Part shown: piece after piece, positions 11,678 to 57,174 of the stretch | Numbering within the stretch: the stretch's first letter is position 1 | Layout of the letters: each line of letters opens with the position of its first letter | Translations under genes and position numbers: made by a program | The notes under the pieces: model-generated | Databases searched by the model: none | Told to the model about the DNA's origin: nothing | Seen by the model: only the letters and a program-made list of their open reading frames with translations | NCBI GenBank assembly: GCA_026225945.1 | Contig: JAMJFZ010002500.1 | Span: 2,192,501-2,256,500 of the forward strand | Direction of reading: 5' to 3' | DNA: 64,000 bases | From: Cricetomys ansorgei | Lineage: Eukaryota > Chordata > Mammalia > Rodentia > Nesomyidae

Positions 11678-11968
11678 GCTGATCCCAAGGCTGTGAGATG
11701 GAGAATAGAAACAAGGAGTACAAGGAGATGCTGCTGCTGAAAGGCCTGGAACAAGTCACGGAGGTGGAACTGCAACGGTTCAAGTTCTTTGTCACAGATG
11801 AGTTTAAAATTGCCAAGAATAAACTCGACACTGCAAACAGAACAGAGTTAGCAGATCAGCTGATTCAAAGTGCAGGCCCAGTATGTGCAGTGATGAAGAC
11901 CATCCGTCTTTTCCGGAAGTTGAATTATATTCATGTTGTAAACAGTCTTGAGGAGGAAAAGAAGAAAG
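11678..11968 (+). CDS. Aim2: Aim2 exon with start codon: pyrin domain
   Basis: The start codon is at 11698 in an exon bounded by a pyrimidine-rich acceptor (ending cccccag at 11677) and a donor at 11969 (AAAG|GTATG). It gives 90 codons plus one base. The product is a complete pyrin domain of the AIM2 subtype: MENRNKEYKEMLLLKGLE at the N-terminus, an ELQRFKFF helix, a central NRTELADQLIQSAG segment, and VMKTIRLFRKLNY near the end. These match the six-helix pyrin fold, which recruits ASC by pyrin-pyrin contacts. No internal lesion is seen, so this part could still be expressed. Bases 11678-11697 are 5' untranslated. The untranslated first exon upstream was not identified. Confidence 0.9.
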
Positions 11969-16763: not shown

Positions 16764-16918
16764 TTGATAGTAAGTACAAGACAAATACAAAGAAGAAAGG
16801 AGCGCAGCAAGGAGGGAAAAAAAGCCAAGCTAAAAAACGTCCTGTTGCCTCTGCCAGCAGCCAAGCCAAAGTCGTCAAGAAAAGCTCCATTACAAAAAAC
16901 AAGCTACCTCAAGCTAAG
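16764..16918 (+). CDS. Aim2: Aim2 second coding exon: basic linker
   Basis: The exon is bounded by acceptor 'cttctccttcaccag' and donor AAG|GTAGGC. It is 155 bp and joins the pyrin exon in phase 1 (G|TT gives Val), restoring frame, so the two exons total 142 codons. The encoded segment is Lys/Ser/Ala/Gln-rich and strongly basic. It starts VDSKYKTNTKKKG, contains QAKKRP, and ends KLPQAK. In AIM2 the equivalent stretch is the flexible linker between pyrin and HIN domains. No lesion is visible. The phase match to both neighbours is the main evidence that it belongs to the same gene. Confidence 0.85.
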
Positions 16919-18909: not shown

Positions 18910-18999
18910 CCTCCAAAGAAGAAGAAGAGAGTGGCAGAATAGGAAGCCATCAGAACTAAATTTGAAGAAAGATCCACTGGTATTCATGGTGCTGAAACC
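18910..18999 (+). pseudogene. Aim2: Aim2 first HIN exon, truncated by LTR
   Basis: Acceptor 'ctctcatcacag' precedes an exon that opens in phase 0 with PPKKKKRVAE and then a TAG stop at 18940-18942. The following bases keep AIM2-like coding (EAIR, then KDPLVFMVLK after a +1 shift of frame). The similarity ends at 18999, where the LTR begins with TGCCAGG. A read-through of the first three exons therefore gives 142 + 10 = 152 residues ending in a basic PPKKKKR tail. The KDPL..MVLK piece is the start of the HIN domain in PYHIN proteins, and everything after it is replaced by retroviral sequence. Confidence 0.85.
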
Positions 19000-19653
19000 T
19001 GCCAGGCTGGCCTAGAGCTGAAAAGGGGTCGAAGTGTGCTTAGAACCCCAGATGTCTTATCCTGAGAGTGGCAGGAGTTTGACAGCTCCCCCTCTTTACT
19101 CTGGTGCCAACAGACTCCAGCAAACATTAACAGCTGATAAACTTTCCCCAGGGGTGGACAAGCCCCAGTGCACATAACCACTGACAAATTCCTGCTCTAC
19201 CAAGGCTGCAAGGATTGGTTGCTACATATCTGACCACTGCAGCTGGATGATTCTTGTCTGGGTTTCCTCTCTTCCTTTATGATCTTATAACGTCTCTTTC
19301 CCTGGTCCCTGTAAACCTCTGCTTATGCAAATAGAGCCTTTTTAATACTCTAGCCTTGCTTAATACTCAGCCAATGACATATGACCACCTAGGCCTGGTT
19401 GTGAGCCCTTGCATGCAAATGAAGCTTTCTTAGTACCCCTGCCCTGGCCAATAGCACATCACATATGTCACCCCCCCACACACTTTCTCTCTTAGGACAT
19501 ATATATCACTCCCCTTGCTTCAATAAACTAGCTGTTCTCTGAAGCAGTCTCCTGGGAGTTCGTTCTTTTTGTACTCACACAACTCAGGATCCTCTTCCTG
19601 TCCCTGCCAAACTCCCCCTATCATGCTGGGATGGAGCAGAGTTCAGCCAGGCA
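19000..19653 (+). mobile_element. Class II ERV 5' LTR inserted in Aim2 exon
   Basis: The left end TGCCAGGCTGG and right end CAGCCAGGCA are near-perfect inverted repeats with TG...CA termini, which defines a 654-bp LTR. It holds octamer-like ATGCAAAT motifs near 19325 and 19414, a TATA-like 'gacatatatatcac' near 19497-19510 and an AATAAA signal at about 19522-19527, so its transcription direction is plus, the same as Aim2. A primer binding site follows two bases later. The preceding host bases are gaaacc (18994-18999), the expected six-base target site, but no second copy was found downstream. Confidence 0.85.
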
Positions 19654-19655
19654 GC

Positions 19656-19673
19656 TGGCACCCAATGTGGGGC
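19656..19673 (+). other. Primer binding site, lysine-tRNA type
   Basis: TGGCACCCAATGTGGGGC differs at two positions from the site complementary to tRNA-Lys1,2 used by many betaretrovirus-like elements. Its place two bases after the LTR end confirms the LTR boundary and the plus orientation of the provirus. Confidence 0.8.
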
Positions 19674-20329
19674 CAGAGGGGGTCACCAAGATGTACAGGA
19701 GGAAGGTAAATCCAGAGGGAGATCATGCACCCAGCCTTGCCTCCTTACTGAGGGCTGTCAGATTCTCTTTTTCCTTCTTTATTTTCGGCTTTTGTCATTT
19801 TAAGGGACCAGATATGGTTGAGGGGCAGCTGACACCTTTGGCCAGGGTAATTCCTTGGCATGGGTAGAAGGCTCCCAGCTCTATATCTGGACCCAGAAGA
19901 CCCATAAGGGTATTGGCTATAACCCTATATACTTCTCCTGTCTCTAAAAACCCAGTATCTCAATGACCAAGTCAAGGATTCCTTTGAAATCTGCAGGCTT
20001 ATGCCTGGAACTCTGAGGGACCCCCCCCCCCTCATACACACACACACTCCTCATGCCAAGGCCCTAGGCTGGACCACATAAGAACTCTAGTCTCTGGGTC
20101 TCAGTTTCTTGTGTCAGGTCCTAAACAGCTTCATTGTCCCTTCTCTATTCCAAGCCCTGTTTATGTTTCAGTTAGACAGTTGGATTCTCTTGGTGCAACT
20201 GCCCACCTGCAGAGGCAATCCTCCCTGCTGAGGCAAGCCACCAGGTGAATTCAACCTGGTGGCACATGTTAGGGTTTCTTGGTTTTGTTTTGTTTTTTTA
20301 ATAATTAATTTTTTTTTTTAAATTCGGCT

Positions 20330-20500
20330 GGAACTGAGATGGAAAAGTCACCTGGCATTCAGGAGCCCAGGAACCACACAGTTTTGACAGGAAGGTGCCC
20401 TGGCAGTTGGGAGCCCAGGGCCATACAGCTCTGAGGTGGGAAGGTGTCCCCAGTGTTGAGCTCTGAAGGGAAATATCCCCGGCTGAGCTGTTCTTCATGC
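20330..20500 (+). repeat. Imperfect ~50-bp tandem repeat
   Basis: Successive units share 'cctggca...ggagcccagg...ccacacag' spacing at 20350-20395 and 20397-20445, with a weaker third copy after 20445. A similar 'gcggagccctg' repeat runs through 21290-21500. The two arrays give this part of the retroviral interior its low-complexity character. Confidence 0.55.
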
Positions 20501-22459
20501 TTCTGGCCAAGCTGAGGTGTCCTTCATCCTTCTCGGTAGCTGTCTCTACTTGGGAGAAAGGCAGCAGCTGAAGCTGTGCCCCCTCCCTACTCTCTGTAGA
20601 GTCCAAAAGGCTGCTCTTTATATAGCGCCCCTGGGAAGCATTTGGGAAGTCCAGAGAGGGATGAGGGGCTCAGCTTAGGGACATTTGTGTTAGTTGGGGC
20701 CACTTCTGTGCTGCTCTTCCAGATTGGGGGATGCCACAGCCCGCTGGGAATGGGGTCTCTGATAGTCCCAGAGAGGAGCTTTCTTATGTGGGGTCTCAAG
20801 TCCCAGTGCTCCCCAGCCTTGCAGAGCCAGACTTCCCCAAAAGGGAAATATACTGGCTCCCCAGTGGTTCTCGGCACCATTGGGGTTCATGGTAGGCACA
20901 AGGGGTAGTGCCCCCCAACCCCACCACTGCCATACCCAACAGGTGGTGAGGGAGGCAAACATTAGCCACAAGCAGCAGTTGACAACAGGAGGGGCTAAGC
21001 TTGCTGGGTAAAGTCAGATTAGCTGTGAGGTGCCATTTGGGGCCAAGAGCAGGCAGCTAGCAGCCCAGTTCTCAAGTTTGTCAGCCTGCTGCCATGGCAG
21101 TTGTTGGCTGGCCAAGGCAGCCTGACAGTTTGACGCCTAGAGGAGGGTTGGGTCTGGCAAAGGGGCAGAGCTGAGGCGGAGCTACTGCCACATGGAGTGG
21201 GTCCACAGAGTCCAGGCTGTGGATGCTGAGGGGAGCAGGACCCAGGCCCCACTGAGTAAGTATGGAGGGGCAATCAGCAGTGGACCTCTCCACAAAAGTG
21301 GGAGCCCCTCTATGTGGACCGTGGGCGGGTGGAAGGACCCAAAGCGGAGCCCTGGGCTGTGGACTGTGTGTAGGGGGATAGGGCCCTCAAGACATGGGAG
21401 CCCTCTGCTGGGTAGTATGTAGGGGGTGCCCAAAGCAGGAGCCCCGTGCTGCTGCAGACTGGGAGGAGGCCATATGCGGAGCCCTGCACTGTGGACTCTG
21501 CTTATTGCAGAGCCCCAACAGCATGCACATCCGCACGTAGGGCTGTGCTGGTGGTCCCTGTGACTCTTTCCTGCTCCCCATCTCTCCCGACCCCTCCACC
21601 CATGCATCATCCTTCCCTCCCCTTTTCCAGCTGCCACGGGAAGGTGTGGGATGGGCCAGGGGTGGGGTCAGGAGGTGACCAGGGAAGGCCAGGGTAGGCA
21701 GGATAGGATGGCAGGTCCCTGACTCACTCAGCAATGACAGCAAGATGGCGGAATGGGGTGGGAGAGGGTCAGGGGTCTCCCACATATCCCAGACCCCTGT
21801 GCTGCCCCATGCAGGTAGATGAAGGGCAGGTGCAAGGTAAAACGTTTTTCTGTCCTTTCAAATCTCTGCTGCCTTCTGCAGCCCTTTTTCTAAAGCAACA
21901 ACAACAGCAAAACAACAGCAAACAAACAGAAACAAAAACCTCTCAGTCTTTTGAACATGAGCTAAGGTAGTTTCAATGGCTCAAAAAGCCAATAAAAAAG
22001 GTCTCAGGAGTTAGGCAATGGCTCACCCTTCCCCAGACCCATACTGTTGTTAAAAGATTTCCTCCAAAATCTATGAAGTACCAGGAAAGCCACCTGTCTA
22101 GGTCACTGAAAAGGAGAGAAAAAGGAGACAGATCATTCCCAATGGAGACCATTGCTACCTATCTCATTCTGTTTGGTTTTGGTTTAACACTAAAACTTTC
22201 TGAAGTTATTTTGTGATAGTAACATGTGCCCCCCTCCCACTCCCACCACCACCACCACCATCAATGTGGCACATCCATCTTGGCTTCTGGAAAAGGAAGT
22301 GACCACATGGCTGGTCAGAAAGACAGGCCTGAGTGCCATCATTACTATGGTCGAAACAGTAGGCTATGTGGAGATACTAACATGTGGCTGGCAGCCATCT
22401 TTGCTAAGGTCAAAACAGCAGGTCATATAATTTCACATCTGCAGAAACCTTATACAATT

Positions 22460-23900
22460 TAAGGTAGCTTCAAGTCACCCAGATATTTCTAACAAAATGG
22501 ATATTATTATGATAATTTCTGTCCTAAAGCAATGTTTATGTAAGATATCATTTTAAAACAATGATTGTTTACTAAGGTATTAAAGTTAATTGTACTTTGC
22601 ATTTTTTCTCTTAAAATAAAAAAAAGTATTTTATCTTTGATATTACAGGAATGCACAACTGAGAGATTTTAAACTTTAAGAGTAAAAATTGACATTCTAC
22701 AAAATTTGAGTTTTACATAAAATCATAAATTTACAAATTAAATATTCTTAAAGAAATGACTTTTAAGTTTTTGTGATTATAGAACATCTTAAATCTATAA
22801 ACTGTTTATGTTATGGCACCTTTATTGAACTTCAGGCTTCTAAACATCAGAAATAAATAAACATTTCTTAAACATCAGAAGTCCAACATCAGGCTTCTAA
22901 AAAATAATATGACAAAAAACAGGTGTATTTGATAAATAAGGTTTATACATTCCTAAGGTCTATTCAGGTTCACAGTAATATTTGTTTAAGATTTAGGTAT
23001 TTAGATAATCTGAGTTACACAAAAGACTGGTCTGTAATGGTGCAGTATACAGTAAGAGTAAAGCTACCAGTCCCTCTATGGACGGCGTTTTTGGGTTTAT
23101 ACATTTATTGAATATGTCAAATATTCAACTCAAATTTACAGACTCTAACCTAACAGAGATAGAAGCTGTAACATCCTAATTCTATTCGCCATACGACCAT
23201 ATGTTGCTTAATATATAGTAATTATTAGATAATTAATACATTATCTATTGTAATATGTTGGTTATCTATCACATATATAGCTAATAAATAATTGATATAG
23301 GATGTTTAATAATATAATTATTATTAAGTTATATTAAATTGATAATATAATTATTGATTATATGATGTTATATGATAATCATGATTACGAACATCATTTA
23401 CTATATTATTGATATTATTGTTATTGATCATAATATTGTTGGTAATTAATAATAATGGTAATTACTAGTTATGATTATTACTGACGTTATTATTAAAACA
23501 TTATTGACAATAATTTGATGATTATTATTGGCAATTGTAAGATTTTAAAGATAAAGACATGCAAGCTTAAAGTCAGTCCTTTTACAGATGCTCAAATTCT
23601 TTAATGTGTTCGGATATGTACTTACAGTCACACAGAGTACTAACTCTGTGATTAATTCCAAAAATAAGCTTTAGTTGGCCTCCTGTTATATATTTGTAGT
23701 CATATAGTGTACTAATTTATTCCAAAAAATAAGTTTCATTTAGCTTCCTATATGTGTTTTCAAATTTAAATCTAAAACAAGTAACTAAAGCACAATATGT
23801 ATACTTAATATATATAGATATACTTAATAGATAATAGGTATACTTGAGATATTATGGTCCTCAAATCTTCCAGAGATATGCTAAAGATGGCATTTAAATG
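22460..23900. repeat. AT-rich low-complexity block with inverted TAAT motifs
   Basis: This stretch is strongly AT-rich. It is densest at 23195-23530, where TTATTA and TAATAA words alternate on both strands and could form many small hairpins. No gene or recognised element is seen in it. Confidence 0.6.
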
Positions 23901-24889
23901 TTTTAGCTTTACCCAATAAACAGTGGCCATTCCTAACAGTAAACCTTGAGGTCTCCAAGAAGTTAACTGGGTCCTGCAATAAAGACCCCACCTGGATCTT
24001 AATAATGCTAACCACTGGTCAAAACTGCCCCATGCCTCCAGGTTTTACACAAACTGTGGACACATTTGGGTTGGCTGCTTTGCTCTGCCTAACCTGGGTG
24101 AGATCAGCCCTGGGCAGCCAAAGGCCTGCACCATTCTGTATGACACCTGGGGATCAAATACTGTTTTGTGACAGATGACGTCTGCACCCAGTGAACCACA
24201 AGAGCCTTGGGAATTACCTAGTAATGGGTCTCTCTCATTAATTGATACACAGACCATCTAGATTCTACAATTCATCCTTCCACAGCTCTCTGATGGCTTG
24301 ATGGCTGGGTATAGTTTTTGGAGCAATAAACATCTGCCCGCTCTTCCCTCAGTCCTCCCTTACACACACACCTCCTCCCGCAGGCTTCAGCTGCCTTCTT
24401 AGTCCTCTCCACATGTAAACGCAGGCCTCAGATTTCACCTTGCTAAAACTGTCAGGCCTCTAGCTGATAAAAACAAATTGCCATGTACCAGACCCTTACA
24501 GAGATAAATTCAGCTAAAAACCTACTTTTACTATTTCTTTATTCAAAGGAGTTTACCCTACAATGCCTACGCCTCTCTCATGGTAAGTGATTAGATAAAA
24601 GGTCTATGCAAGTTCTGAGGATCTAAAAGATATTTTAAGATATATAAATACAAATTACAAACGGGTGTGTGTGTGGTTCTATTTGGATATCAAGGACTCA
24701 GAGTCTGATAAGCTGGTATCACCATTATCAGCCGCAAGCTCAGGGTTCTAAACTTCCTTTGGTCGTTTGTCTTCTGAATGTAAACTCGGAGATGCTTCTC
24801 ATCAGGCTAAAACATTTTTGTCCAATTTGTGTTTCTAGCTCTCTAGACAGACAAAATGCTTATTGTTCTGGCCTAGGGCCATGACTTTT

Positions 24890-25570
24890 GCTGTAACTCA
24901 AAAGGCATGTGTTTGCACGTCGGTACAGATTATAAACAGTGGTAACCTAAAGTATCTATCTTTTTGTAAACTTAAAAATTTCTTGTGAGCCTCAGGAAGT
25001 TGACTTGGATCCACTTCCCATGGGTCAGATTCCAGATTTGCATGGACCACAATCCACACTGGGAAAGGCACAAAACAACTCATTTCTCATGTGCTGGCTG
25101 CCTTTCACATCATGGGTTTGCTCCACCAACTTAAAACAGACAAGGGGTCTACATTCATGAGCTCCCAGTTTAAAACCTTTGCTCCACATGGGGTATCTCC
25201 CACCAAATGGTAATACCTGATAATCCACAGGGCCAAGGTATCATAGAATGGACACACCAAACCCTGAACAATCAACTTAAAAAACAAAAACCAGGTGATT
25301 ACTATTCAGTTGTTAATGGCCCTAACAACAGTAAATTTATTTTGTATACATATAAAAATTCAAAATGCCCCTCCTATTGCTACTCATTGGAAAACTCACG
25401 AAACTACGCCAAAATTACTGATGAGATAGTGAGAGCCACTGGATGGGACATAGAAGGGACCTGATCCCCTACTAACCAACAGGATGATTTGCTTGTCTTC
25501 CCACAGGACGAACCCAGGCTTATCTGGGTCCCAGCTGGAAAGGTCTGGCACGTCTCCACCAATCTAGAAG
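24890..25570 (+). pseudogene. Betaretrovirus-like integrase remnant
   Basis: Reading across several frames, the plus strand shows an integrase core and C-terminal order: a HIMG segment, then a TDKGSTF stretch at the position of the second catalytic Asp (the following residue is changed from the usual Asn), then NPQGQGIIEW with the catalytic Glu at about 25230-25250. A tail follows with GTWxxPDPLL-like text, 'LVFPQDEPRLIWVPAGKVW', typical of the C-terminal domain. Frameshifts and stops separate these pieces. The enzyme would have joined viral DNA to the host genome and is now dead. Family: class II ERV, agreeing with the lysine primer site. Confidence 0.75.
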
Positions 25571-26143
25571 ATGATATGGCTCTTCTTGGAAGAAAAGGGG
25601 ACCCAAACAAACTGCCCCAATGGTTATGCCTGCTACCCTATGGCTGACCTGTACATCTCCCACCAACTTGTCCCATACCCTAGGCCTGTACTAACCCACA
25701 AAAATGTTCTCCAACAGGAAGATGAAGTCCAAAAGGAGTTGGAGTGGCCCTCTCCTGGCTGCAATATAATCCAGTATGCTGAGGAGCTTCTTTCTACAAC
25801 CACCCACCCCTATGCTTCTCAATGCTTCTTCTGTGCATCACTCTCTTGCCCCCTACTTGCTGCAGTTCCAATTAACCTCTCTTTACAGGAACCTCAGGGA
25901 GATAATCCCCTCAGACTCCCTCTCAGGAATGTATCTCTCTTAGACCAGACTCCTACACTCCCAGTCTGCCTCTCTGGGTCCCATTTGACCCCCAGCTCCC
26001 AGTGCCTTCTTAATGTCTGCCCCCCTTCTGCTTCCCCATCTCCCAGTTATTTCTATGAGCAATTCTGGCTTCCCAAAAGAAAAGAGCTTTTGACTAGGAA
26101 GATGGATACAAAACGAAATGTGTTTTTAATAAGATTCACCTAG
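25571..26143 (+). pseudogene. Env-like remnant of the class II ERV
   Basis: A 190-codon frame follows the integrase directly. It contains several Cys in spaced pairs (QCFFCASLSC), a hydrophobic LPVCLS motif and many Pro/Ser, as in betaretroviral surface-unit segments. It has no signal peptide, cleavage site or membrane anchor, so it is at most a fragment. The placement, where env should be, is the best evidence. The protein could also be a chance frame. No 3' LTR follows before the next Aim2 exon at 26303. Confidence 0.4.
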
Positions 26144-26302
26144 CTCCTTCTCTTAGACTTGCTAAGTAGAAGCCTGTTAGTTTGGAACCTGGAATTATTC
26201 CTTACATTTCTTATGGAAAGCTGATCCCATCTTGTCTAATACCTGATTCGTGTGCTGTACTTCTTTGGCCATCGTATCAGAGTGTTGTAGTTTTTCCCAC
26301 AG

Positions 26303-26400
26303 ATAACAGAGAAAAAGGATAGAGCAGTATACGATACACATGTTGACACAGGGAGGATGGGAGTATTGGTGCTTTGAAACCAGAGCATTGTTTAGTTTTT
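26303..26400 (+). pseudogene. Aim2: Aim2 second HIN exon, decayed
   Basis: After acceptor 'gtttttcccacag' the plus strand encodes ITEKKDRAVYDTHVDTGRM followed by GVLVL. This is the AIM2 pattern at the start of the second HIN exon (the 'TE-K...Y-I-D-TG-MEVL' strand pair of the second OB fold). A TGA at 26375-26377 interrupts it where Gly is expected, another stop follows at about 26390, and recognisable similarity fades after that. Its presence beyond the retroviral remains shows that the ERV lies inside the Aim2 locus and that DNA in between was lost. Confidence 0.75.
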
Positions 26401-27405
26401 GAGGTTATAACATAGTGACGCCATTTCCTTCTCTTTCTTCACTCCAAACCCTTCCACGTACCTTTTCTTGCTTTTGTTTTTCAAATGCATGACCCCGTTT
26501 CTTATTAGTTGTGGTTATAAGCACACATGTAAATCTACGTACATACATAAATACAACCTGATCAACCTGTATAATGTAACTTCTGTGTATATTTCCAGGG
26601 TTGGCTATTTGCTATTGGATAACTAATTGATGTGCTCTTTCCTGTGATAGACTGTCTTTACAATGAAAACTAAGGTTAGGGGATTTGCAGCAGTCACAAC
26701 AGTTTCTGGCTCCCTCAGAGAGCTGCGGTTACAGTGCAAACATACGAGAAAACCTAAGGAAAGACAATCATCTTCAGAGAGTTATGAGGCAGAAATATTT
26801 TCTACCGGAGAGAAGTAGTGCATGCTAGCCACCCCGCAAATTACAATTAAGTTAAAATCTGAAAAAATCCCCCAAGGTTGCGCTTAGAGTGGCATGATAA
26901 TGGAGATCCCCAAGGAACCTCAATCACAGGGAGAGTTTGCACCCATTTTCAGGTGCATTACAGTGGGTGATCATGAGAAAGTCTAGGCATAGGCTGAGGG
27001 AAGAACAGACGAGCTTCTGTGAGAAAGTCATGACGTCTTCCCTTAGTCTTCTCATACAGAATAAAAATGCCTCTAGGGGAGAGCAACAATAGTCCCCATT
27101 ACTCTTTATGTCATAGAAACACTTTGAAATAGATGGGAGGAAAAATTGTTCTTTTGGAGCAAAAGAAGAAATAGGTTCTAGGCGTAGAATACTACGAATC
27201 TCCAACATCTGGTGGAGGAGAGAATTAGAGCTGAAACCTCCTCTAACTTAGAAACACAGTATTCAGTGTTTGCCACGTAGAGCAGCTGAATAGATCAATG
27301 GAATATTCTCTGATCACTTTGCGTGCTCTTTATGACTCTGCTAAGCAACCATCAGCTAACAGCTCACAACAGCAACTTGTAGGAAACAGTCAAGAGTGTG
27401 TGTTC
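26401..27405. other. Intergenic, nothing recognised
   Basis: No further AIM2-like coding, including the small terminal HIN exon, could be recognised. The 94-residue minus-strand frame at 26924-27208 has no family resemblance and is not supported. Confidence 0.5.
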
Positions 27406-27407
27406 AG

Positions 27408-27482
27408 GGCTAACCTGTAGCTCAGAGATAAAGTTCATTCCTAGCATATGCCAGGTCCTGGGTTCAACCCGCAGCATTGTAC
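27408..27482 (+). repeat. ID/B4-like SINE
   Basis: 'agggctaacctgtagctcag' followed by 'aggtcctgggttcaacccgc' is a tRNA-derived head with intact A and B boxes at the usual spacing. Confidence 0.7.
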
Positions 27483-27872
27483 AGGATCTATAAGTGTATT
27501 GGAGTACTCAAAATAGACAGGACAGATGGTCAATTTTCATATTGAAAATGGAGACTGAGAAGGAATGAAATGGAAATATTGAAAACGAGAGAGATATTTA
27601 CAGTGAGGCAAAATGCCATAAATGCCATCAGCAGGATGACCAATACACCTGATACAGCAAAGAATGAATCAGAGGACTAAAAATTGACCCCTGTCAGACA
27701 AGACAGGAAATTTTCATTTAAACTATGTTTGTATACTTATACACTGACTTATGTATATTATAAGTGTTATGGGTAGATAGTTAATAGTGTGATTCCTTAT
27801 GACTTTTTCAGAGCTCCTTATTATTCTACCAATATCCTTCCTTCTGTATTTATCCCCCTCACTCCTTGTAGT

Positions 27873-28200
27873 TGTACGTTGCTGTGGTAGATCAGGTTGG
27901 AGGCATTTTTCATAACTGCAAACCCTGCCAGACCTCAGCAGAGGGAACCACCATCTTGGTCAGTTCATACTGGACAGTGGAACCTCAAGTGTCTGAGCTT
28001 ACGTGTTTTTATTCATTCAGAACTCCTTAGGTGTTCTACTGATACCACATATAGATCATAAGCAATTAAACAACCCCCAGAGAAATTCAATACCTGAAGA
28101 AAATACAAAATAAAATAAACTTCCACATTTCCCCTTTTCTGTATAAAAAAAAATTGCATTACCTTTTCAACACAATTTAACACTACACACAAGCAAAACC
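27873..28200 (-). mobile_element. LTR-like repeat, copy 1 of 3
   Basis: It shares with 29428-29744 and 62579-62850 the sequence 'aaccctgccagacctcagca', 'gtggaacc' + 'catctgagct' and 'aaat(c/t)caa(t/c)acctg'. It carries TG...CA-like ends when read on the minus strand (TGTTGTGGAAG... ...TAACA in the best copy). It is the most diverged copy and its 3' boundary is unclear. Confidence 0.55.
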
Positions 28201-29427
28201 ATTTACAAGAGGAACAATTATGAGGCTTTTAATGCACATGACCAAATGATACCAAATATCTATCAAGCTTTTCACAATGTCTTTGGACAACAGAAAAATA
28301 TTATCAATGTCCAATTATCTGGAATTCACTCACAATCTGGGCTCCTCCAAAGAACTTGGATCACTTCTCTAGCTCTGTCCTCTGCAGCATACACAACTTG
28401 TCCTCAAGGCTTCAGCTGGCTTCAGTCCATTGCTGTTGCTCTTGGTGGTCATCCCATGGTACTGGCATCTTCAGAAGGCTGCTGGGGTCCCTTGCTGCAA
28501 CTGGGCTGCACTTTCACCAATAGCCTCTCCTGGGCTCTCTTCACTGGACTAGGCCTCAACTTCCTTACATGACCCCTTCGATCTGGACCTTCAACTTCCA
28601 CTGAGGCTGCCCTTCACCAATAACCTCTCCTGTCCTCTTAGAGTGCCAAGCCCCAGCTGCCCTCCAAAGACTGACTCCTTTATGCCTTCAAAACCAGTAC
28701 CAGTTGGGTGACACTTACAGTACAGTTCAGCTACCAGCACGAGATATTACCTTGGCCAGTTCTGGAAGACAGTGTCTGTGTGCTGACCTGGGGGAAAACA
28801 CTTTCCAGGTTTTAAGATAGAGTCTGGTTTGTAAGAAAAATAATTGGTCACTTTGTCTGCAGTAAAGGTCCCCTTGTGGGTGGAGTTCTCATCACCATCA
28901 CCATCACCCAGACTGCTTGGTGAAACATCCTGATGGTTTGGCATTCTTTTTCACCACCACCACGGGTAAACAAACAACCCCTTCCATAGATTTCAAACAC
29001 AACAGTTTGAACTTCATGTACACACAATGCAGCTATCAGAAAACACAGATTGTGGAACAGTTCACTACCACCAGCAGCAGGAGGGAGCATCGGCTTCATG
29101 ATCAGAAAAAGCAGTAAGATATTTGCTTTTTCCTGTTCCCAAGTGAATTCTTTATCTCTAAGGGCCTCCATTCTGTGGTTCTCACCTCGGAGCTTTCCCC
29201 CTCATTTATTTATTAATTTCACAGCCTTTTCTCTTCATAGAAGCTTATTTCCATTCTCTCTCTCCTCTTCCATCAGAAGCCTTCAATTAATACCTTAATT
29301 TCAATCCTCTGGTAGCTTCCCTGAGTGTAATTTACCAGACTCTGAGGTCTGTGTTTCTTTCTCTTCTTCCTCGTCTCCACACTGGATCATCTAGTATGAT
29401 GTCCTGCCCCACGTTGGTATGCCATCT
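28201..29427. other. Intergenic, nothing recognised
   Basis: No exon or known repeat was recognised. The frame at 28246-28572 and the His/Thr-rich frames near 28900-29120 lack any family features. Confidence 0.5.
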
Positions 29428-29744
29428 GTAGTATTACATTGCTGTGGCAGCTCACCAAGGAAGACAAGGAGGCATATTTCATAATTGCAAACTCTGCCAG
29501 ACCTCAGCATAGGGAACCACCATCATGGCAAGCACCGTCCTCAACAGTGGAACCCTGAGCATCTGAGCTCAGGTGTATTTATTAATTCAGAACCCCTCAG
29601 GTGCAGATCAGAAGCAATCTAACATCCCCCACAGAAATCCAACACCTGCAGACAATACAAAATGTCAAGGCCTACGCATCCCGTTTTCCAGCAGTGCACA
29701 GAAACAATTATTTTAAACATAACTAAAAATAAACTTTCACAACA
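29428..29744 (-). mobile_element. LTR-like repeat, copy 2 of 3
   Basis: It aligns through its length with the copies at 27873 and 62579. Landmarks are 'aactctgccagacctcagca', 'cccacagaaatccaacacct' and 'gcagacaatacaaaat'. No internal retroviral sequence adjoins it, so it is a solo LTR or a similar short LTR element. Confidence 0.65.
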
Positions 29745-29989
29745 ACTCCTCCTTAGTGAAACCCTATTATTTTTTACCATTTCCTCCATCAGCTCATTTG
29801 TACCTGCTGTTATCCTGTGTTGTCGCCTACATCTGACCCCTGCAATGTCTTTTTTTTTAAAACTTAACTGGTCACTGCAGTTATTCAGGATATGTACACA
29901 CATCTGAAGATATGGATGGAACCAGGATCTCCAATAACAGAGAATGTGTGACCTTTTTCTTTCTGGCTCTCGGCAGCTTCGCTCCATGT

Positions 29990-30420
29990 GATCTTTTCTA
30001 GTCCTACCCACTTACCTGCAAACGTCACGATTTCATTTTCTTTACAGCAGAATAGTATCCCATAGTGTGTATGCTCCACATTTTCATTATTCGTTGGTCG
30101 GATGGCATTTAGATTCTTCCACTTCCTATCTATGACTATGGCTGATCAGATATCTGTGGAGTTGAGTCCTTTCTGCATGTGCAAGAAGTATAGCTGGATC
30201 ATATGACAGATTTATCTTTAGCCTTTTGAGAATTTGCCACGCTGATTTCCAGAATGGCTGGACCGATTGCATTCCCACTGACAGTGAGTGAGGTTTCACT
30301 GTTCCTCCCATCGTTTCCAGTGTCGTTGGTTGTTTGGTTGATCTTTGCCATTCTTACTGAGGAAAGATGAAATCCCAAAGTTATATATATATTTGATTGT
30401 TTGGGACAATGAAAATTCTT
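29990..30420 (-). repeat. L1 fragment, antisense
   Basis: 'ttacagcagaatagtatccc', 'tatctgtggagttgagtcct', 'gaatttgccacgctgatttc' and 'ctgacagtgagtgaggtttc' correspond to the L1 ORF2 3' end read backwards. Decayed. Confidence 0.65.
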
Positions 30421-30499
30421 TGAGATGTTTCTGAACTATTTTCTTCTTTTAAGAATATTCTGTTCAGGACACAGGCCCATTTAAAAAAATTTTTTTTTA

Positions 30500-31370
30500 C
30501 TTTATTTTTTCAGTTCATTATGTATTCTGGACATTAATCCTCTATATAGCAAAAAATATGTAACAAAAACTACAATACCAGGCACGAGAAACCCTCTTTT
30601 GAGTAATTGGTTAGGGTTGTCCAAGAGACTCCCAAAGCCTTACAGGCTATTGCTATTACCTTTGGTTGTTGCCCCTCCTCCAAAAATAAAAAAAAGATGA
30701 ATCCCTCTTGCTGAAGATGCTATGCATTTCAAATACAGGGTTCAGAGGCTCCTGAGCTGGAATTGACCTGATAGTCTCCTACCCATGGATTATCGTTTAT
30801 AGCACCAGAAGGTGCTATACAAGCTTCCAAAAGAGGGAAGGACCCGTTAGTATCACCTGGCTATGATACCCATGATCCATAACAATGACCAACATGGCGC
30901 AATAACCTGGTAACCAACAGTTTGCTAATTGTATTTAAGACCCACCCAACAAGAAAGAAATCATTCTTATACTAGAAACCTAGTCAACTACCCAAAGCCA
31001 GTGAAGTTGTAGGTTTGAGAGGAGAACGTACAACCACTACTTTGATAAACTAGCATAATCCCTAACTACACTCTAAACGTTTGCCCTTATACCCGTAAAG
31101 AAGTGTAGTCCTCATCCCTCATGAAGAAAATTTCTTCTTGCAACAGATGGAGACAATACAGAAAACCTCAAGCAAACAAAATGCAGAGTTGTGGGTCCCA
31201 AACCCACTGGATACATCTATAATAGAACACCAAAGCCTCAGAGAACATTGTGGGAGAGGGGGCAGTAAGATTGTGAAAGCCAGAGCTTGGCTCCCTAGGC
31301 ATACACGGGTACTAAACTATTTGGCCCATATGGCCTCTGCTACAGCTTGTTAGCTCTGGCGCCTGTCATA
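30500..31370 (+). repeat. L1 3'-end/3'-UTR-type repeat
   Basis: Text such as 'ggttagggttgtccaagaga', 'acacggg' and 'gaacattgtgggagaggggg' 'cagtaagattgtgaaagcca' is shared in order with 37070-37760 in this window. It matches the style of rodent L1 3' UTR segments. Not coding. Confidence 0.6.
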
Positions 31371-31384
31371 AAAATACAAATAAA

Positions 31385-31890
31385 TGAATCTGTCTGAATT
31401 TTAATACAATTTTATTTATAGACGCAGAAACTTGAAATTCATATAATTTACCTATGACACCAATATTAACCTTTGGATTTTTTTCTGAACATCTAAAAAA
31501 CGTGTTGGTATTTAGGTGGACTATTCTGTAGATATCTGTTAGGTCTATTTGATGCATAATGCCATTTAATTCTGACATTTCTCTACTTTTCTGTCCCAAT
31601 GGCCTGTCTATTGTGTTGCAGTAAAATCACCTGCTATTTCTGAGGTGGAATTAGTCTGTGTCTTAAAGTATGGTAGTATGCTTTTTATGAAATTGGGTTG
31701 AGCCACAGTTTGGTGCACAAATGTTTAGGATTTCAATATTGTGTTGGTTCTTTGTTTCCTGGATTAGGATGTGCTGTCTTATATGTCTCTGGAAGTTTGT
31801 TCCTAACTAGCAGAGCCATGTTATAATTTTGACCACTTTGTTAGATCTCCTATCATGGTAAAGAACGTGAGATTCTATGATTAATGGATA
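31385..31890 (-). repeat. L1 ORF2 fragment, antisense
   Basis: 'tctgttaggtctatttgatg', 'cacctgctatttctgaggtg' and 'gttggttctttgtttcctgg' are antisense L1 ORF2 words. The short frames across it are not genes. Confidence 0.65.
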
Positions 31891-33435
31891 TGATAACTAA
31901 ACAATTTGATCAGTAATACCCTGTCCAGGGATGCACTCTGAAAAGATGTCTCTTTCCTTTTTCTCAGCCAGTGAAACCCTTCCTTGGAACATAAGTCTTG
32001 ATAACCGCAATTCAGACTGGACTCCAGACCCTACCTTCTTTTTAACTTGACTTCTTTGACTGCATAACACCTGATCCTCAAGAAAGGGACTAGCACACTC
32101 ACACACTCAAAGTACAAGCTGACATATTTCTTGAACTCTATGTGTTTCACTCTGATCTTTAGAGCACAAACTATTTTATAGTAACTTATGAAAGGATAAA
32201 AGAGACCCAGAGACTCCTGGGGAAGCACCACTTTTAGATAAAAATGTTTATTCTTTTTTTTCTTCAAATTTTGAAATAGATGGAAAATATGGAATCTATA
32301 CGATATAAAATGTATAAAGAACAAAGTAAAAGAGCCCTGTTTCCTAGGATTAAAAGCTGGATTTTATATGTATTTTATTTCACTATGTGTCATATCCACA
32401 CTTTTCTTCTGCACTTGCATCTTATCATTATAAACGTCATGGCCAGTGTTGCTCAGGTGTCCATAATTGGGAGTTTAGGGACATTTCCATAAATGAATGA
32501 GGAATGGGTGGTTCTCTCTCCCTCGTCCTCCCATAGATGACCTAGAAGGAGAAAAGGATGAAGTCAGATCAGTAGAGATGCGGCTGGTCGACTCTTCTTT
32601 ACTCACACGTCTCTATGAGCCACCTCTTATCCCCATCCTCACCTGACTCCTTTACTGAATCTCTACCTTTGGAATCAGCCCCTCCCCCAACCTTTGAGAA
32701 CATAAAATGAGCTATTCATACCTACCTAGCATGAGCACAGATAAAAGAGCAGGAGATATCAGGGAGCAGTAGTGGGAATGGAGAAACTGCAGTGCCAGAG
32801 GCAGGAGTTGAGTGGAAGGTATTATTGCATGGATGGTTCAGAGGAGGGTGCGGAAGGCATGGCTGATGCAGCTGTTGGGGTGGGGGAGGGGGGGAGTTTG
32901 GAATGTTTGCCTTATGGTCCTTAGAATAAAGGAGATCCAAAAGCATTTCCACAGGAATGAATAGGTCAGTTCTTACATTTTATCTATGCATTAGTAGTAA
33001 TCTTTGGTAGTGAATCCCATTGTGCGACAAGGGTGTGGATTTTGGTACCTTGTGCTCTGATTTGCTGAAACTAAGCCACGCCTGGGAAACAGATGGTGTA
33101 TATTGTGAGTTCCGTTAGTGATACTCTGATGGATCCGCTTTGATTATTTCCATGTTACATGTGAGGCCCCCGACCTTTAGGGTCTTTGGTTAATATGAAA
33201 ATACCAGAGCCAGAGTTTGAAACACGTCAGACCCAAGTTCCTAGCAAATAATTTCTCTGATTTGATAAATACAACCATTTTATTATTTAAGTTAGAGAAT
33301 AATAATTTGGGAGTATCTGTGAATATCCTCTTTTTACTATGATTTCACATTCATTAGATAAGCCAGGGACCTAGGGGAAAGAAATCCAAATACTACTGCT
33401 CTGTTAAAGGATTGTAGCAATAAAATGACTCCTAA
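31891..33435. other. Intergenic, nothing recognised
   Basis: No coding exon was recognised on either strand. I searched by eye for the small terminal HIN exon of the minus-strand gene here and did not find it. Confidence 0.5.
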
Positions 33436-33439
33436 CAAT

Positions 33440-34262
33440 ATTCTGCTGATCAGTGTCTCACTCAGCCATCACCAGAGAAGCCCCTCCTGTCGTAGGTGGA
33501 AACTAACACTGACACCCACAGCCAGACAATATGTAGAATCTGAGAGACCTTGAAACACTCAGACTTAAATGGGATGTCTTCATCAAACCCCTCTCCTCAG
33601 AACTCAGGAACTATGGAGAAGAGGCGGAAAGACTGTAAGAGCAGAGGTATGGAGGAGACCGGAAACAAAGCCTTCTAAACACAGCAGGACCAACACACAT
33701 GAGCTCACAGAGATTGAGGCAGGATGCAGAGGGCATGCACAAATCCATCCCAGACTGGGTCCCAGCTCTGTGAAGGGGAAGTGGATACAAGATCCCATCC
33801 CTAACCAAGAAGCATTTGCGATAGACAACTGCTTGTAAGGGAAAAATTAGTTTCCTCCAGTGGAATCTCACTTGGTAAACAAATGATCTACTTAAAAGTC
33901 GATGGCCAATTCAAAACGAACTCCAGGGTAGTTTTGGAGGTTTTATTGTTGTTGTTACACAATGCTTTTGGCATTTAAAAAAAAATCTTACCAGTCTTTT
34001 GCTTGTATATTATGGTTTCTGATCTTTTATTTCTATGAATTGTGTGTGTGTATGTGTGTTGTGCTTTTTTTCATTCTGGTTGGGGTTTCTTTAATTTGGG
34101 GGGGGGGTTGTTGACTGTTTATTCCGTAAAGAAAGACACAGGAAAGGAAGGGGTGGAGTTGGATAGATGGGGAGGAGCAGAGGATATGGGAGGAGATAAG
34201 GGAGGGGAAACTGTGATAAGAATATATTCTATGAAAAAGTATTTCCAAATAAAAAAGCAAAA
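33440..34262 (+). repeat. L1 3' UTR, sense, with poly-A-like end
   Basis: 'cttaaatgggatgtcttcat' 'caaacccctctcctcagaac', 'catgagctcacagagattga' and the terminal 'gaggggaaactgtgataaga' 'atatattctatga' follow the rodent L1 3' UTR from start to end. The end is A-rich. Confidence 0.85.
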
Positions 34263-34428
34263 AGAAACAAAGCAAAGACAAATAACCGTATTTTAAAATG
34301 ATGGTAATAAAGTGTTTACATATGCTAGCATTTAAACTTAATTTCCTTTTCACCTGTTACAGTCAAGTCTTAGACTGTGAAAGAAGTGATTGTCAGGAAG
34401 AGGAATAATGATGCCTCAGAGCACACAC

Positions 34429-34617
34429 CTGCAGGTAGCTGTGCCTCACGGATCTCAGCTGCCACTTATCCACACTTGAGCTCAATTCAAAGCAAAAGAG
34501 CCTAAGCTTATCCCCTGGCTCACAGTACGTATTGGTAAATTGTCCGTGTACCACCACTTCCATCTTCCCTGTTCTGTCTTCTATTCCGTAGTAAATGAAT
34601 CCTTTCCTCACAGTTTT
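34429..34617 (-). CDS. HIN domain, second exon
   Basis: The minus-strand acceptor 'atttctttttcag' precedes 189 bp (63 codons, phase 0 on both sides), ending CTGCAG|GTGTGT. It encodes [20 protein letters not shown], then a Gly-Asp-Lys-Leu-Arg-Leu segment (about residue 40) and a final VRHSYLQ. These are the second OB-fold strands of a HIN-200 domain, part of the sugar-phosphate-binding surface. The frame is open. In other PYHIN genes one more short exon with a Lys-rich VIKAK-type end follows, and it was not found downstream. Confidence 0.85.
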
Positions 34618-37600
34618 CTGAAAAAGAAATTGACATTCATCTCCTGAGAAGTGTGTCACAATTTGTCACATCTATGAGACATAAATAGTGTTAGCAGAAT
34701 CTTGTCTCTGATAACGCAAATATGGTACAAGACAACTTCAGACAGTCTGGTTCACAGGTCTTGCCTTTGGAAGTGTCTCTCGAGGTTTTCTTACTTAAGG
34801 TCTTTATCTGGTGGGTTATTCTTATTAATTAATTAATTAATTAATTAATTAATTAATTTGAGACAGGGTTTCTCTCTTGTAGCTCTGGCTGCCCTGGAAC
34901 TCAGTCCGTAGACCAGGCTGGCCTCAAACTCTGTTCCACCTGCCTCTGTCTCCCAAGTGCTGGGATTAAAGGCATGCACCACTACCGCCCGGTATGATGA
35001 ATTATTCTAGAGAACTTTTGCTTCTACCACACTGGTAGAGATGCAAGTTCTTAAGGAGCTCAAGTAGGGGAAAGTCAGAATAAACTGATTGCCATTGTAG
35101 GCGCCTTAGGTAATGAATGCCACAAAACTCGAGAAGAGTGTCTTGTGGCTCATTGTGAGTCTGAGACTATCTAAGTCCCAATTAAATGGGGACTTTTTCT
35201 CAATGCACACATTTATTTTATTCATTCTATTCCAAATATTTTAGGCAGACGGGGATAAAAGTAAAAAGCCTCTGCTGACTATGTACAGCAGAAGATGAGC
35301 TCTTACTTTGAACAAGTGGTTAGGTTGTCTAAGCATGCTATTTGCAGGGGCATTGGAACTGAAAGACACAGGTCAAGTCCAATAATTCCTCAGTCTCCTA
35401 TATATTGTCTTGTCTAATGTCAAAACTTGAGAAAGTAAACTGTATTTCTCTAGTATATTATACTTGTTTCTCTTAAGATGGAAAGTAGAAGTCACTTGCT
35501 CAACAATCTCTTGGTGAATCTAGACCAAGTCAGAATGGCTGAGCTCAAGGAACAGTGAACAGTGAATGATGATATGGCTGTGGAGAAGGGGGGATCCCAG
35601 TTCTCTGTTGTGAGATTACAGGCTGTTTCAGGCACTCTGGAAACCAGTGTGTAGAATTCCCTAAGCTAAACATATGTCTTTCATATGACCAACTATACCA
35701 TTGCTTGGCATATACCCAGTAGAATTGACATCTTTAGAAATATCTGTTCAGCCCTGTTCATTGCTGACTTATTTACAATAGAAGATAAAACATTCTAAAT
35801 ATCCTTCAGCTGATAAATGGATAGTGAAAATGATTCATATACAAAATAAAATACTATTTAACTGTAAAGAAAAAGGAAAATTTCAGTAAATGAATGGAAC
35901 TAGAAATTATGCTGATCCAGGTAACCCGGACCAGTGGCATGTCAGTGTCGACACGCATGAAGCAAGAAGGAAATCCAGTTCAACATGACTCAGTAGCCAG
36001 TCTTGGTTCAAACTTCTAAAGTCTGCAGCAGGCAGTTTATTTTAGGCATATTTAAGTATAGCAAAATTTTGGGAAAACATTTTCTAATGGTAACTCAATC
36101 CCATGTGTAAAACAAAGCTTAAAACATGTTTACGTTGAAACTTTTAACAGAACACATATGACCTCTTCCATAAGAATGGGTTCTATTGACTGGGAAACAA
36201 TGCTCAAAATAAGAGTCTAGGAAGACTGACTGAGATAAACCTAAAAGTCTGGAGAAGTCAGATGTGGCCTGGCCCTACAGAGAGCACAGAAGTCACCTAG
36301 GCTGCTAACCACCTCTGCTCCATTTTTAAAGTGCGTGTGACATCTCCCATAAATGTGGGTTCTATTGACTCAGAAACAATGCTCCAGATAAAGGTCTAGG
36401 GAAGAAGAATCTGGGATAAATGTAATAGTCTGGGGGAGTCAGGTGTGGCCTTGCCCAACAGACAGCACAGTCACCAGGTTATTAACTTCATCCATTCCCA
36501 GCCTTCTTGGTGGAAAACAGATTATACATCTCTTCTGGTGAAGAGACAACATTGAGTGTTTAAATCCCTTGTTTCCCTAGTTCTTATTTGTGAGCATAAG
36601 GACCTTGTGTCCTTTATACAAATATATATGTTTTCTCTTATTTGTGGATGCTAGCTCCAAATATTTAGATGCAAATACATAATCTGAAGTCACCACAGAT
36701 ACCAGAAAAGTAAAAGGGGACCATGATAGAAACATTAAGGATGAAAATAGGAAGACATGGTTTCTATGAAATGGGAAATAGAAGAAAATGGGTGAGGAGC
36801 ACTTACCTTAGAAGAAAAGAGGAACAACAACATGAGGGAGAGGAAAGGCAAAAGGATATTTAACACTAAGGAAATATGAAAAAGGCATAGAATATTATTC
36901 TAACTTAATTTTTTTCTAATTTAAATTACATATAATATAACACACACACACACACAAATAAATATTGTGTAGTTTGATTGAAGTTATGCCAACTGGGGTG
37001 ACAATGCTCCATAACCCCCCAAAAATCTTTAGACTATTTCACAAAAATCCAGTGCCAAGCACAGAATACTTCCTTTCAGGTTGTTAATCAGGGAAGTTCA
37101 AGAGACCAAACTAACAATACAGGCGACTGCTGTTGTCTTTGATGCCTTCCAGGAAAAGAAAAAGATTCTCTTGCTGAAGACACCACATAGTTCAGACACA
37201 GAATTTGGACGAACTGACTGATGACTAACTCTTATAGTTTTAGAAGGAGCCATGCAGACTGTCTAGCCATGTGCTGTCTAGCTATACTGCCAATGAACCA
37301 CAACGGTGGCCAACGTGGCAAGGTATTCTGAAAGGTAAAATAGTGACACTTATATCCTTGGGTAATCAACAGCTATGTGATTGGATATAAGGGCCACTCA
37401 GTAGGAGGGAATTCATGCCCAGTACTGTAAATTGTTGGAATGTTTAGTCTAGAGGAAAATGTACCCTCAGTTGCCTAAACCAGTGTAATCTTAAACTGCA
37501 TTCTAAATATTTATCCTTTTAACAACAGAGAAATGGAACTCTCACCCTCTCCCAAAGAAGCTTCTTTGTGTAGCAGATGGAGACCATTACAGAATGCCAC

Positions 37601-40600
37601 AACTGGCCGACATGCAGAGATAACTGACTACGGGGTGTCCTCATCCAGTTAATACATTTACAACACAACCCCTACACTTGAGGCTCAGGAAACATCACAG
37701 AAGAGGTTGCATGAAGGTTGTAAGAACCAAAGTGTCAAGCTATTTACTTCAGGATAGTCTCTTCTAAAATAAAATAAGATAAAATAAAATAAAATAAAAT
37801 AAAATAAAATAAAATAAAATAAAATAAAATGGACCTGAAGCAGGGTGGGACAAGTCATTCTGGGAGGAGTTGGGAGAAGAGTGAAGGGTGAATATTATCA
37901 AAACACTTAGCATGAAATTCTCTAAGAATTAATAAAAATATTATAAATAAAATGAATGGAAATAAGAATAGTTTAAATGCAAGGTAATCAATAAGTTAGC
38001 TACTTGTTTTCTCATTATTCTGTTTATCACAATTATCCAGGCAATGACTTCAACCATTATTCATATTTCACTGGCTACTTGTAAGGGTATGGAAGAATGC
38101 AAAGAAATAAAATCTTAAGGATATAATAATTGATATGAAACACTCTAATTGGATAATCAGAAATGATAAAATGCCAAGCTTTGTGTTGAATCTCTTTTGA
38201 AAACATTTTCATAATGATACCTTGAGAAGAATAGGAAGAAACTATCCTACACCTTAAAGTGAGAAACTTCACTTTTTTCTCTCCCTGATCAGGGAGACTT
38301 TGCTTTTTCATGTGCAGTGAACCAATCATATTCCAACTGCTAAGTTAACACTTAAAATCTGACATCGCAGATGAAATCTTAACAAATAACGTGATGGCTT
38401 ACCATATACACTGCAAACACTCCATTAACAAATGTTCCTCCTCGTTGTAAACAAATATTATTAATTTTGGGTGTTGCATTGGCTCTTCGCCTCAGCGAAA
38501 GTGGGATATTCATCACAACACTGCCATTCACCTCTGACACACTGGAGCTGCGGTATATCTCCAGAAACCCATTGCGGCCAATATAGTCTGAGATGATGAT
38601 AACTCTCTTGGGGATGAACTTCTCCTTCAGGACTACGTCAAACACCTTCACCCTGAAGAATTCAGTCTCAGTAGCCACCGTGGCATGGAACATCCTTTTG
38701 TCCTCTCTCATGTCGTATGTAAATGGTGCTGTTGCTTTTAACACCATTACTTGTTTGGAACCTTGTTGGTGACCTTCTTCCTCAGATGGTTGCTTAGGTA
38801 GAGTTGTCAGTCTTGGTTTCTGCACAGAATGTACACAGGAAAGCCATGCATAGGTAAGACAGAAACTAAGGAATACCCTTGTTAGATAAAATGGGAAAAT
38901 CTAAGTAATGCCTCCATGCTATGACATAGGTAATGGGGAAAGATCTGGGCAGTAATTTCAGCATATAGTAATTACACACTGTAGGTAAGTGGGTTGTATT
39001 AATGTCTTTGTGGTGTTCGGGGCTGCACTCAAGGCCTCATGAACTCTGGACAAATTCTCTCCCTGTGAACTACATTCTACATCTAACAGCACATTTTACA
39101 ATTTAAATTACAAATCTTTTCTAAAAAAAAAACAAAAACAAACTTAATACCGCCCCGTAAAAAGCTTAGGTATGCAGCCAACGGAAGCAAGCTAAGCACT
39201 CTGCTCATCTGAATGATTCAGAAGCTCTTCCACTTGCAAAAAGCAGTACTGGAGGAGAATCCTGGATTTGGAAACGGTGGGAAGGGACAGTCACTTGATC
39301 ACTTGCTTGTCCCCACTGTCCTCTGCAGTCTGCATATTCTCTCTCTGTTCCCCCTCCCCCATTCTTCACAGACCCAGCGGCACAGGAACGTGCAGAGTTG
39401 TGACTCAGAAATGCATTCAATTCAGGTAGCATTGCCAGACTCTTCACTGTATTTGTAAAATATATTCATTAACAAGTCTTTGATCCAAAATAAAAAAAAT
39501 TAGATTTACCCATAAGATAACGTTTAATTACGTTCTTTAAGGAGGAGGGCGGCCAGGTGCTCATTAAGTCATAGATTTTCTTTAGGGAGTAGAGAAGAAG
39601 TATAAAATAAATTTAGGGAAGGTTGTCAAATCTTGTATTTTAAAAAAAAAAAAACAACAACAAGTGATGTATTTAAATAAAGCATCACACATCATAGGTG
39701 TTACGAGGAAGTTCTTCCAAGATTGTACTAATTCCTGTCATCATTATAGTTGAGAGCAGCCAATCCTTACCTTGAGTGGTATTGCTGGAGACACTGCAGT
39801 AGTGGGGGAAGTGCTGAGCACTGTTGCCAAAGCTGCCTGAGCAGGAGGACAGTTGCAGGTCAGTGTTGCTTGAGACAGCAGGAGAGGATTAAAACTGCTG
39901 GGCACTGCTGCTCTGGTCACCTGAGGAGCATTGCTTCTTCTGGATTCTGTTTTTGCAGACACCGGAGCTGTATGGCAGGCACCGGACATTGCTGCTGGAG
40001 TCACCTGAGAGGCCTGAATCGTGCTGGTCACTGTTGCTTGAGACATCCTACAGGCCTGGACACCGTTGAGCACTATCCTTGGAGACTCCAGAGGAGCTTG
40101 GTGACTACAGGGAAGTGCCGAAGTTACTTGGGAGGTCAGGGTGCTGCTGGAGGCTGTCACTGGAGACCCCTGAGAAGTCTGGTCACTGGTAGAAAATGGT
40201 ACTGACAGACCCTGTGGTATTTTCTGTGTTGTATATGATGTTTTTGGAAACTTCAGGGGCGTCTGGAGGCTGCTGGACACTGCAGTTGGAAGCCTCTGAG
40301 GAACCTGGGGTTTACTCACTGCTGGACGTCTGTTGGTTGCTGCAAGTTCTGGAAGTTTATGCTCTGTCTGGGATAACGGTGTCATCATGATGCCACATGT
40401 TCTGGTGACTGTGTCTTCAGTCTTCTGAAGGAGAAGAGCTTTTTAAATTCTCTGTATCCCAATAAATGGCTTTCAGAAACCAAATCAAACATGTCCTTGC
40501 ATTTCCCTTCTTTATAAAAAGGTCTTCCCCTCTGCCCGTTTTCCCATGGGCTACAGGAAACATTACTGATCACATGTGGGCATCCCCAACACCTAGCCTC

Positions 40601-57136: not shown

Positions 57137-57174
57137 TGCTCAAGTTATGGGTGAAAGGGTTTAAGAAATATGAA

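Follow-up and report, generated by a model that had tools for sequence, protein, structure and literature searches.

The Aim2 locus and its HIN half

We analysed a stretch of 64,000 nucleotides (the window) from the genome of Cricetomys ansorgei, corresponding to positions 2192501-2256500 of contig JAMJFZ010002500.1 (C1662 in our locus labels). The window carries, on the plus strand, a copy of Aim2, the gene of the DNA sensor AIM2, together with the remains of an endogenous retrovirus (ERV) within the part of the gene that encodes the DNA-binding HIN domain. A genome search with the pyrin domain (PYD) of this copy placed it at 2204198 of the contig. The Pfam HIN matches lay on the minus strand of the same contig between 2226983 and 2324904, with Aim2 in reverse orientation at one end of this PYHIN cluster. 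In the available text of PMC3458909, AIM2 of mouse and human is likewise reversed at one end of the cluster.

The original prediction had described a pyrin exon, a linker exon, the first 90 bp of a HIN exon and a long terminal repeat (LTR) beginning at 19000. This arrangement was confirmed by matches to AIM2 in the PDB, by the splice sites and by genomic relatives of the LTR (Table 1). The PYD and linker exons were intact. The closest PDB chain to the PYD was 2n00 (AIM2; E 1.2e-30), and E values for AIM2 chains ranged from 1.2e-30 to 1.6e-26, with IFI16 reaching just 1e-3. The PYD was 61.9% identical to mouse and 59.5% identical to human AIM2, and the linker exon showed 39% identity to mouse AIM2 over 51 columns (tblastn). 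The four splice sites of the PYD exon, the linker exon and the start of HIN exon 1 were all canonical. Spliced together, exons 1-3 gave an open frame of 152 amino acids, predicted to comprise the PYD and a basic linker without a HIN domain and to end in PPKKKKRVAE. The PPKKKKRV in this predicted tail is presumably a nuclear-signal-like motif.

The HIN half of the gene was broken at several places. The HIN exon 1 remnant contained an in-frame TAG (18940-18942) in place of a glutamine codon, judged by mouse AIM2, and downstream of it a frameshift at about 18955-18961, across which the AIM2 match moved from frame 1 to frame 2. Both of these lesions lie upstream of the LTR. The other ~108 residues encoded by HIN exon 1 could not be recognised anywhere on the plus strand of 18950-34000 (51 of 60 shuffled queries reached the best score), and a remainder hidden within or after the ERV was rejected on this result. 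About 325 bp of the exon are thus gone, and a deletion is needed besides the insertion. Beyond the retroviral remains, the second HIN exon that had been predicted was confirmed at about 26303: 27 AIM2 residues at its start scored 73, a value reached by 0 of 60 shuffled queries (maximum 37), and the piece was 44.7% identical to mouse AIM2, the best of four reference HINs. A search for the rest of this exon gave nothing above chance (the best score was reached by 56 of 60 shuffled queries), and an L1-like repeat followed the remnant directly. No complete open frame joining PYD and HIN was present at the locus.

The 2.53 Gb assembly of C. ansorgei (4302 contigs) was searched for a second, intact Aim2. 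An Aim2-like PYD occurred at one place (8 candidates scored). The Pfam HIN model matched 11 places (16 candidates scored), all on the minus strand of the window contig in the neighbouring cluster. A search with the mouse AIM2 HIN, at E up to 10, returned 13 matches, namely these 11 cluster places, the broken remnant (L020) and one locus on another contig (L022). Of 16 translated loci compared with the four reference HINs, 14 were closest to an IFI204 HIN (they represent 11 distinct exons, since three occurred in duplicate), and the 11 Pfam matches were therefore rejected as AIM2-type; L020 was closest to AIM2. L022 was also AIM2-best but weak (36%, one TAA, E 5.15, no Pfam HIN match) and was taken as a chance match. 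Among the candidates scored, the assembly showed neither an AIM2-type HIN beyond the remnants nor another Aim2 PYD, and the intact second Aim2 that the original prediction had named as a possible refutation did not appear.

We consider it highly probable (roughly 0.85) that the window holds the single-copy Aim2 orthologue of this species, dead as a DNA sensor, with its HIN half broken by several lesions: the stop, the frameshift, the sense-oriented ERV, the lost part of exon 1 and the truncated exon 2. Orthology is suggested by the AIM2-type PYD, the AIM2-type HIN (as remnants) and the position on the opposite strand at the end of the PYHIN cluster. The expectation that DNA sensing would be lost from this copy held, since the TAG, the frameshift, the missing rest of exon 1 and the truncated exon 2 leave no DNA-binding AIM2 that could be encoded. 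Because the assembly yielded no intact AIM2-type HIN and no second Aim2 PYD, AIM2 DNA sensing has, as judged from sequence, very probably been lost in C. ansorgei. If true, a rodent without AIM2 would offer a naturally occurring knockout in a relative of the laboratory models.

Table 1. Features of the Aim2 locus, in window coordinates
Feature	Position	Strand	Details
Aim2 PYD (pyrin) coding exon	11698-11968	+	open; ATG 11698; donor GT 11969; Pfam PYRIN 3.7e-13
Aim2 linker exon	16764-16918	+	open; both splice sites (AG acceptor, GT donor) intact; spliced frame
Aim2 HIN exon 1 remnant	18910-18999 (90 bp)	+	AG acceptor in front; TAG and frameshift
5' LTR (TGCC...GGCA)	19000-19653	+ (Aim2 strand)	genomic relatives; AATAAA at 19522
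Internal part of defective provirus	19654-26018	+	GC-rich leader, AT-rich middle, abrupt end
Primer-binding-site-like sequence	19656-19673	+	read from sequence
Probable 3' part of Aim2 intron before HIN exon 2	26019-26302	+	ends in AG acceptor; intron identity inferred
Aim2 HIN exon 2 remnant	26303-26380 (~78 bp)	+	in-frame TGA 26375-26377
Old L1-like repeat	26381-26660	+	directly after HIN exon 2 remnant; start uncertain by ~10 bp

The retroviral insert and the order of the lesions

A genome search with the LTR gave 42 matching stretches including the LTR itself, and the other 41 were 69-84% identical to it (best 40 of 1355 candidates). Two relatives, L050 and L052, which hardly differ from one another and are 69% identical to the window copy, aligned over the full 654 bp and thereby set the ends of the LTR; 18 other loci started at LTR positions 4-8. 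The TG...CA termini and the repeated family are as expected of an endogenous retrovirus. The primer-binding-site-like sequence may resemble the tRNA-Lys type found in class II (ERVK-like) elements, and a stretch near 25100-25300, picked out by eye, is a candidate integrase-like remnant. Pfam searches of three pieces of the provirus gave no retroviral match and one sub-threshold chance match. The region 20001-22000, at the expected site of gag, was GC-rich (55%); no plus-strand frame longer than 102 amino acids occurred in 20300-22000, and the provirus may be non-coding in 20001-22000.

Matches to the 3' part of the provirus showed a common end within the window. At 29 of 39 other places the match ended at 26017-26020; 6 stopped short of this and 4 ran beyond it, the longest to 26030 (best 40 of 126 candidates); past this point the copies examined mostly carried on with sequence common among themselves. 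Of 19 copies related to the provirus 3' part, 14 had a same-strand match to the window LTR downstream; the 19 form a set that includes duplicate contig pairs and triples and in which the LTR matches were short in L056, L059 and L060. The distance to this match was about 0.9-1.0 kb in L054, L055, L056, L062 and L068. No second (3') LTR was found within the window, and a 3' LTR elsewhere in the window was rejected. Since most of the relatives examined continue past 26018 to an LTR match and the window copy does not, the 3' end of the window provirus has most likely been lost. Among the matches listed, no other genomic match fell between 26031 and 26386.

These observations are consistent with an ERV insertion in HIN exon 1, followed later by a single deletion from the provirus interior into the Aim2 intron. 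That deletion would have taken away the provirus 3' end together with its LTR, and also what was left of HIN exon 1 beyond the insertion. With both the 3' end with its LTR and the rest of the exon missing, one deletion is the simplest account.

Several points weigh against the reading of a single-copy Aim2 broken in part by this ERV. The LTRs that stand beside matching internal sequence in other copies (L054, L055 and L068) were just 68-79% like the window LTR in their main matches, and four nearer LTR relatives (L024, L025, L029 and L031) had no internal match in their 1.5 kb flanks; the pairing of the window LTR with the window internal sequence would thus depend on distant relatives. The stretch 26019-26302 is a probable, not a proven, part of the Aim2 intron. 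Genome searches scored the best candidates only, which makes the absences strong, not absolute. The junctions at 18999/19000 and 26018/26019 are those of the assembly. It is very improbable, in our judgement, that they are an assembly artefact bringing together stretches that lie apart in the real genome. Contig pairs (C436/C376) with equal score and query range do suggest imperfect haplotype handling, which would favour an artefact, but the window contains no N, independent lesions lie on either side of the ERV, and the genome searches showed the Aim2 PYD and the exact LTR copy once each.

No LTR pair is datable for the window copy, so its age was estimated from the terminal branch and from private substitutions. 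An attempt to date other copies used three short upstream stretches, none of which matched a piece of the element. The terminal branch of the window LTR was 0.129 in one tree, built with 23 of 29 other loci (L026, L041, L043, L045, L047 and L051 dropped), and 0.124 (bootstrap 5-95% 0.077-0.149) in another. Private substitutions, counted after L052 was dropped as well to leave 22 other copies, amounted to 35 of 454 well-agreed columns (0.077), and to 44/511 (0.086) and 18/304 (0.059) at other cut-offs. At the 454-column cut-off just 2 of the 22 copies had a lower private rate, and the window LTR is therefore a comparatively young member of its family.

The repeat that follows HIN exon 2, probably the antisense 3' end of an L1-like element, showed longer matches at 70-73% identity and some ~100-bp pieces at 80-84% (best 40 of 958 candidates). 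Its copies had a common start 8-20 bp before the window match begins, at about 26374-26379, which fits the end of a retroposon. The terminal branch of the repeat was 0.24-0.28, in a tree that used 4 of 7 other loci (L077, L079, L081 and L083; L078, L080 and L082 gave about the same alignments as L079), and was longer than the 0.124 of the LTR. On these few comparison copies the L1-like repeat looks older than the LTR. If it inserted in exon 2, the damage to the HIN half predates the ERV; if a deletion placed it beside exon 2, its age is uninformative.

Two orders of events were weighed on this evidence. We hold it possible, though tentatively, that the ERV insertion was the inactivating event and that the stop, the frameshift and the decay of HIN exon 2 followed neutrally. 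The LTR splits HIN exon 1 and brings a sense poly(A) signal, and the HIN remnants carry few other small lesions (one stop and one frameshift within 90 bp; one stop within ~78 bp). Against this order, two lesions precede the LTR in the exon, and the terminal branch is longer for the L1-like repeat in exon 2 than for the LTR. The reverse order, in which the HIN half was already dead through the stop, the frameshift or the disruption of exon 2 and the ERV was a passenger in a pseudogene, is also conceivable and is put forward with similar reserve. In its favour, the stop and the frameshift precede the LTR. So is the seemingly greater age of the L1-like fragment, provided that it inserted in exon 2 and was not placed there by a deletion. 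An L1 insertion of such age might, however, be older than the divergence from mouse, where Aim2 is intact, and so a deletion may have joined the repeat to exon 2. The retrovirus thus stands beside other lesions, and the sequence does not show that it came first. The original prediction of a loss through retroviral insertion was correct in placing the LTR inside the HIN exon and over-stated in naming it as the cause, given the stop and frameshift before the LTR and the cut of exon 2 at the L1-like repeat.

The pyrin half and AIM2 losses in other mammals

A transcript from the Aim2 promoter would be spliced through exons 1-3 and end at the LTR poly(A) signal, giving at most the 152-residue PYD-linker product without a DNA-binding domain. 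If the AATAAA at 19522 were used, the stop codon of this frame would lie in the last exon, and nonsense-mediated decay would, from general knowledge, be unlikely.

Could this remnant be in use? One proposal, which we regard as unlikely, is that selection keeps the truncated gene for a short PYD-linker protein, which would damp or modulate PYD signalling much as POP3 does. Under this proposal the LTR would have made a PYD-only regulator out of the gene of a DNA sensor, with the promoter, PYD and linker under selection, the LTR serving as transcript end and the 152-residue product modulating PYD signalling in a species that lacks AIM2. The open spliced frame with its canonical splice sites is in its favour, and so is a neutral simulation in which frame and splice sites survived in 0.6-4.0% of runs at 0.077, depending on the indel rate, and in 0.01-0.5% of runs at 0.129. 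The PYD showed no excess of private changes (10 in the window against 12 in mouse over 84 positions), with 7 in the window against 3 in mouse over 47 positions of the HIN remnants. Pyrin-only products of Aim2 type are also known (mouse AIM2b and human POP3). However, the age used may be too high, since it counts private changes from before the insertion, and at 0.03 neutral survival rose to 14-28%. The PYD exon alone survived neutrally in 6-17% of runs at 0.077, so that most of the survival signal needs the linker. The counts of private changes are small; together with the simulation they are suggestive of selection on the surviving half and are not proof. A rodent that has lost AIM2 sensing would also make it possible to ask directly if the remaining PYD is junk or has taken on a regulatory role.

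Losses of AIM2 are on record in the available text of the following papers. AIM2 pseudogenes were described in cow, llama, dolphin, sheep, elephant and dog (PMC3458909), and loss with one truncated AIM2 in bats (PMC4764838). AIM2 was lost in carnivorans (PMC7291609). The hippopotamus AIM2 is a pseudogene, and AIM2 was present in 75 of 84 Euarchontoglires (PMC13253634), so that absences within the group of rodents and primates are already recorded. The change in innate immunity that the original prediction called notable would be a loss of a kind already known in many mammals, and the probable loss in Cricetomys would add to these. No report of an AIM2 gene broken by an ERV was found in the literature searched, which lay mostly outside subscription journals, and in its available form the main text of PMC3458909 does not contain the word "retroviral".

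As far as the available text of these papers shows, the Cricetomys gene resembles the six mammalian pseudogenes in being single-copy, with a HIN-C remnant bearing frame shifts and/or stops and no intact AIM2 (PMC3458909). It differs from them in belonging to a rodent, in having an ERV and missing sequence in HIN exon 1, and in its fully open PYD-linker part. A truncated AIM2 also remains in Pteronotus parnellii (PMC4764838), where the rest of the family is gone, whereas in Cricetomys HIN exons of other PYHIN genes persist. The predicted pyrin-only product is comparable to mouse AIM2b, a pyrin-only splice form (PMC3458909); AIM2b is made by splicing beside full-length AIM2, whereas in Cricetomys a pyrin-only product would be the sole one possible. 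It is also comparable to POP3 (PYDC5), a PYD-only protein of the PYHIN locus that is 61% identical to AIM2 (PMC7555848). POP3 is, however, a separate human gene with a suggested origin by exon duplication and with assayed inhibition, while the Cricetomys product is predicted from sequence.

Neighbouring PYHIN genes and paired contigs

Some matches in the genome searches came in pairs. L026/L027, L047/L048 and L071/L072 had equal score, identity and query range on paired contigs (C436/C376 and C784/C280), and the assembly may therefore contain haplotypes that were not collapsed.

A neighbouring PYHIN gene lies on the minus strand within 34393-57139 of the window, with its PYD at 56792-57139 and HIN exons at 38379-38900 and 34393-34665, the latter of the IFI204 second-HIN type in both cases. 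A long linker-like frame stretch occurred three times (39528-41270, 42138-43065 and 52348-54032); the first and third copies were 89.8% identical over 1.7 kb, and the middle copy was 79-80% identical to both. This gene contains a second retroviral insert, gammaretrovirus-like, at about 44248-51176 on the minus strand, which has long open frames. Its env-like and RNase H-like pieces scored above the Pfam cut-offs and a protease-like piece scored below. Two matches to HIN exons of the cluster, L005 (C1662:2324638-2324904) and L006 (C1662:2285931-2286101), contained an in-frame TAA, that of L006 falling outside the shorter match L013, and further PYHIN genes may thus be decaying.

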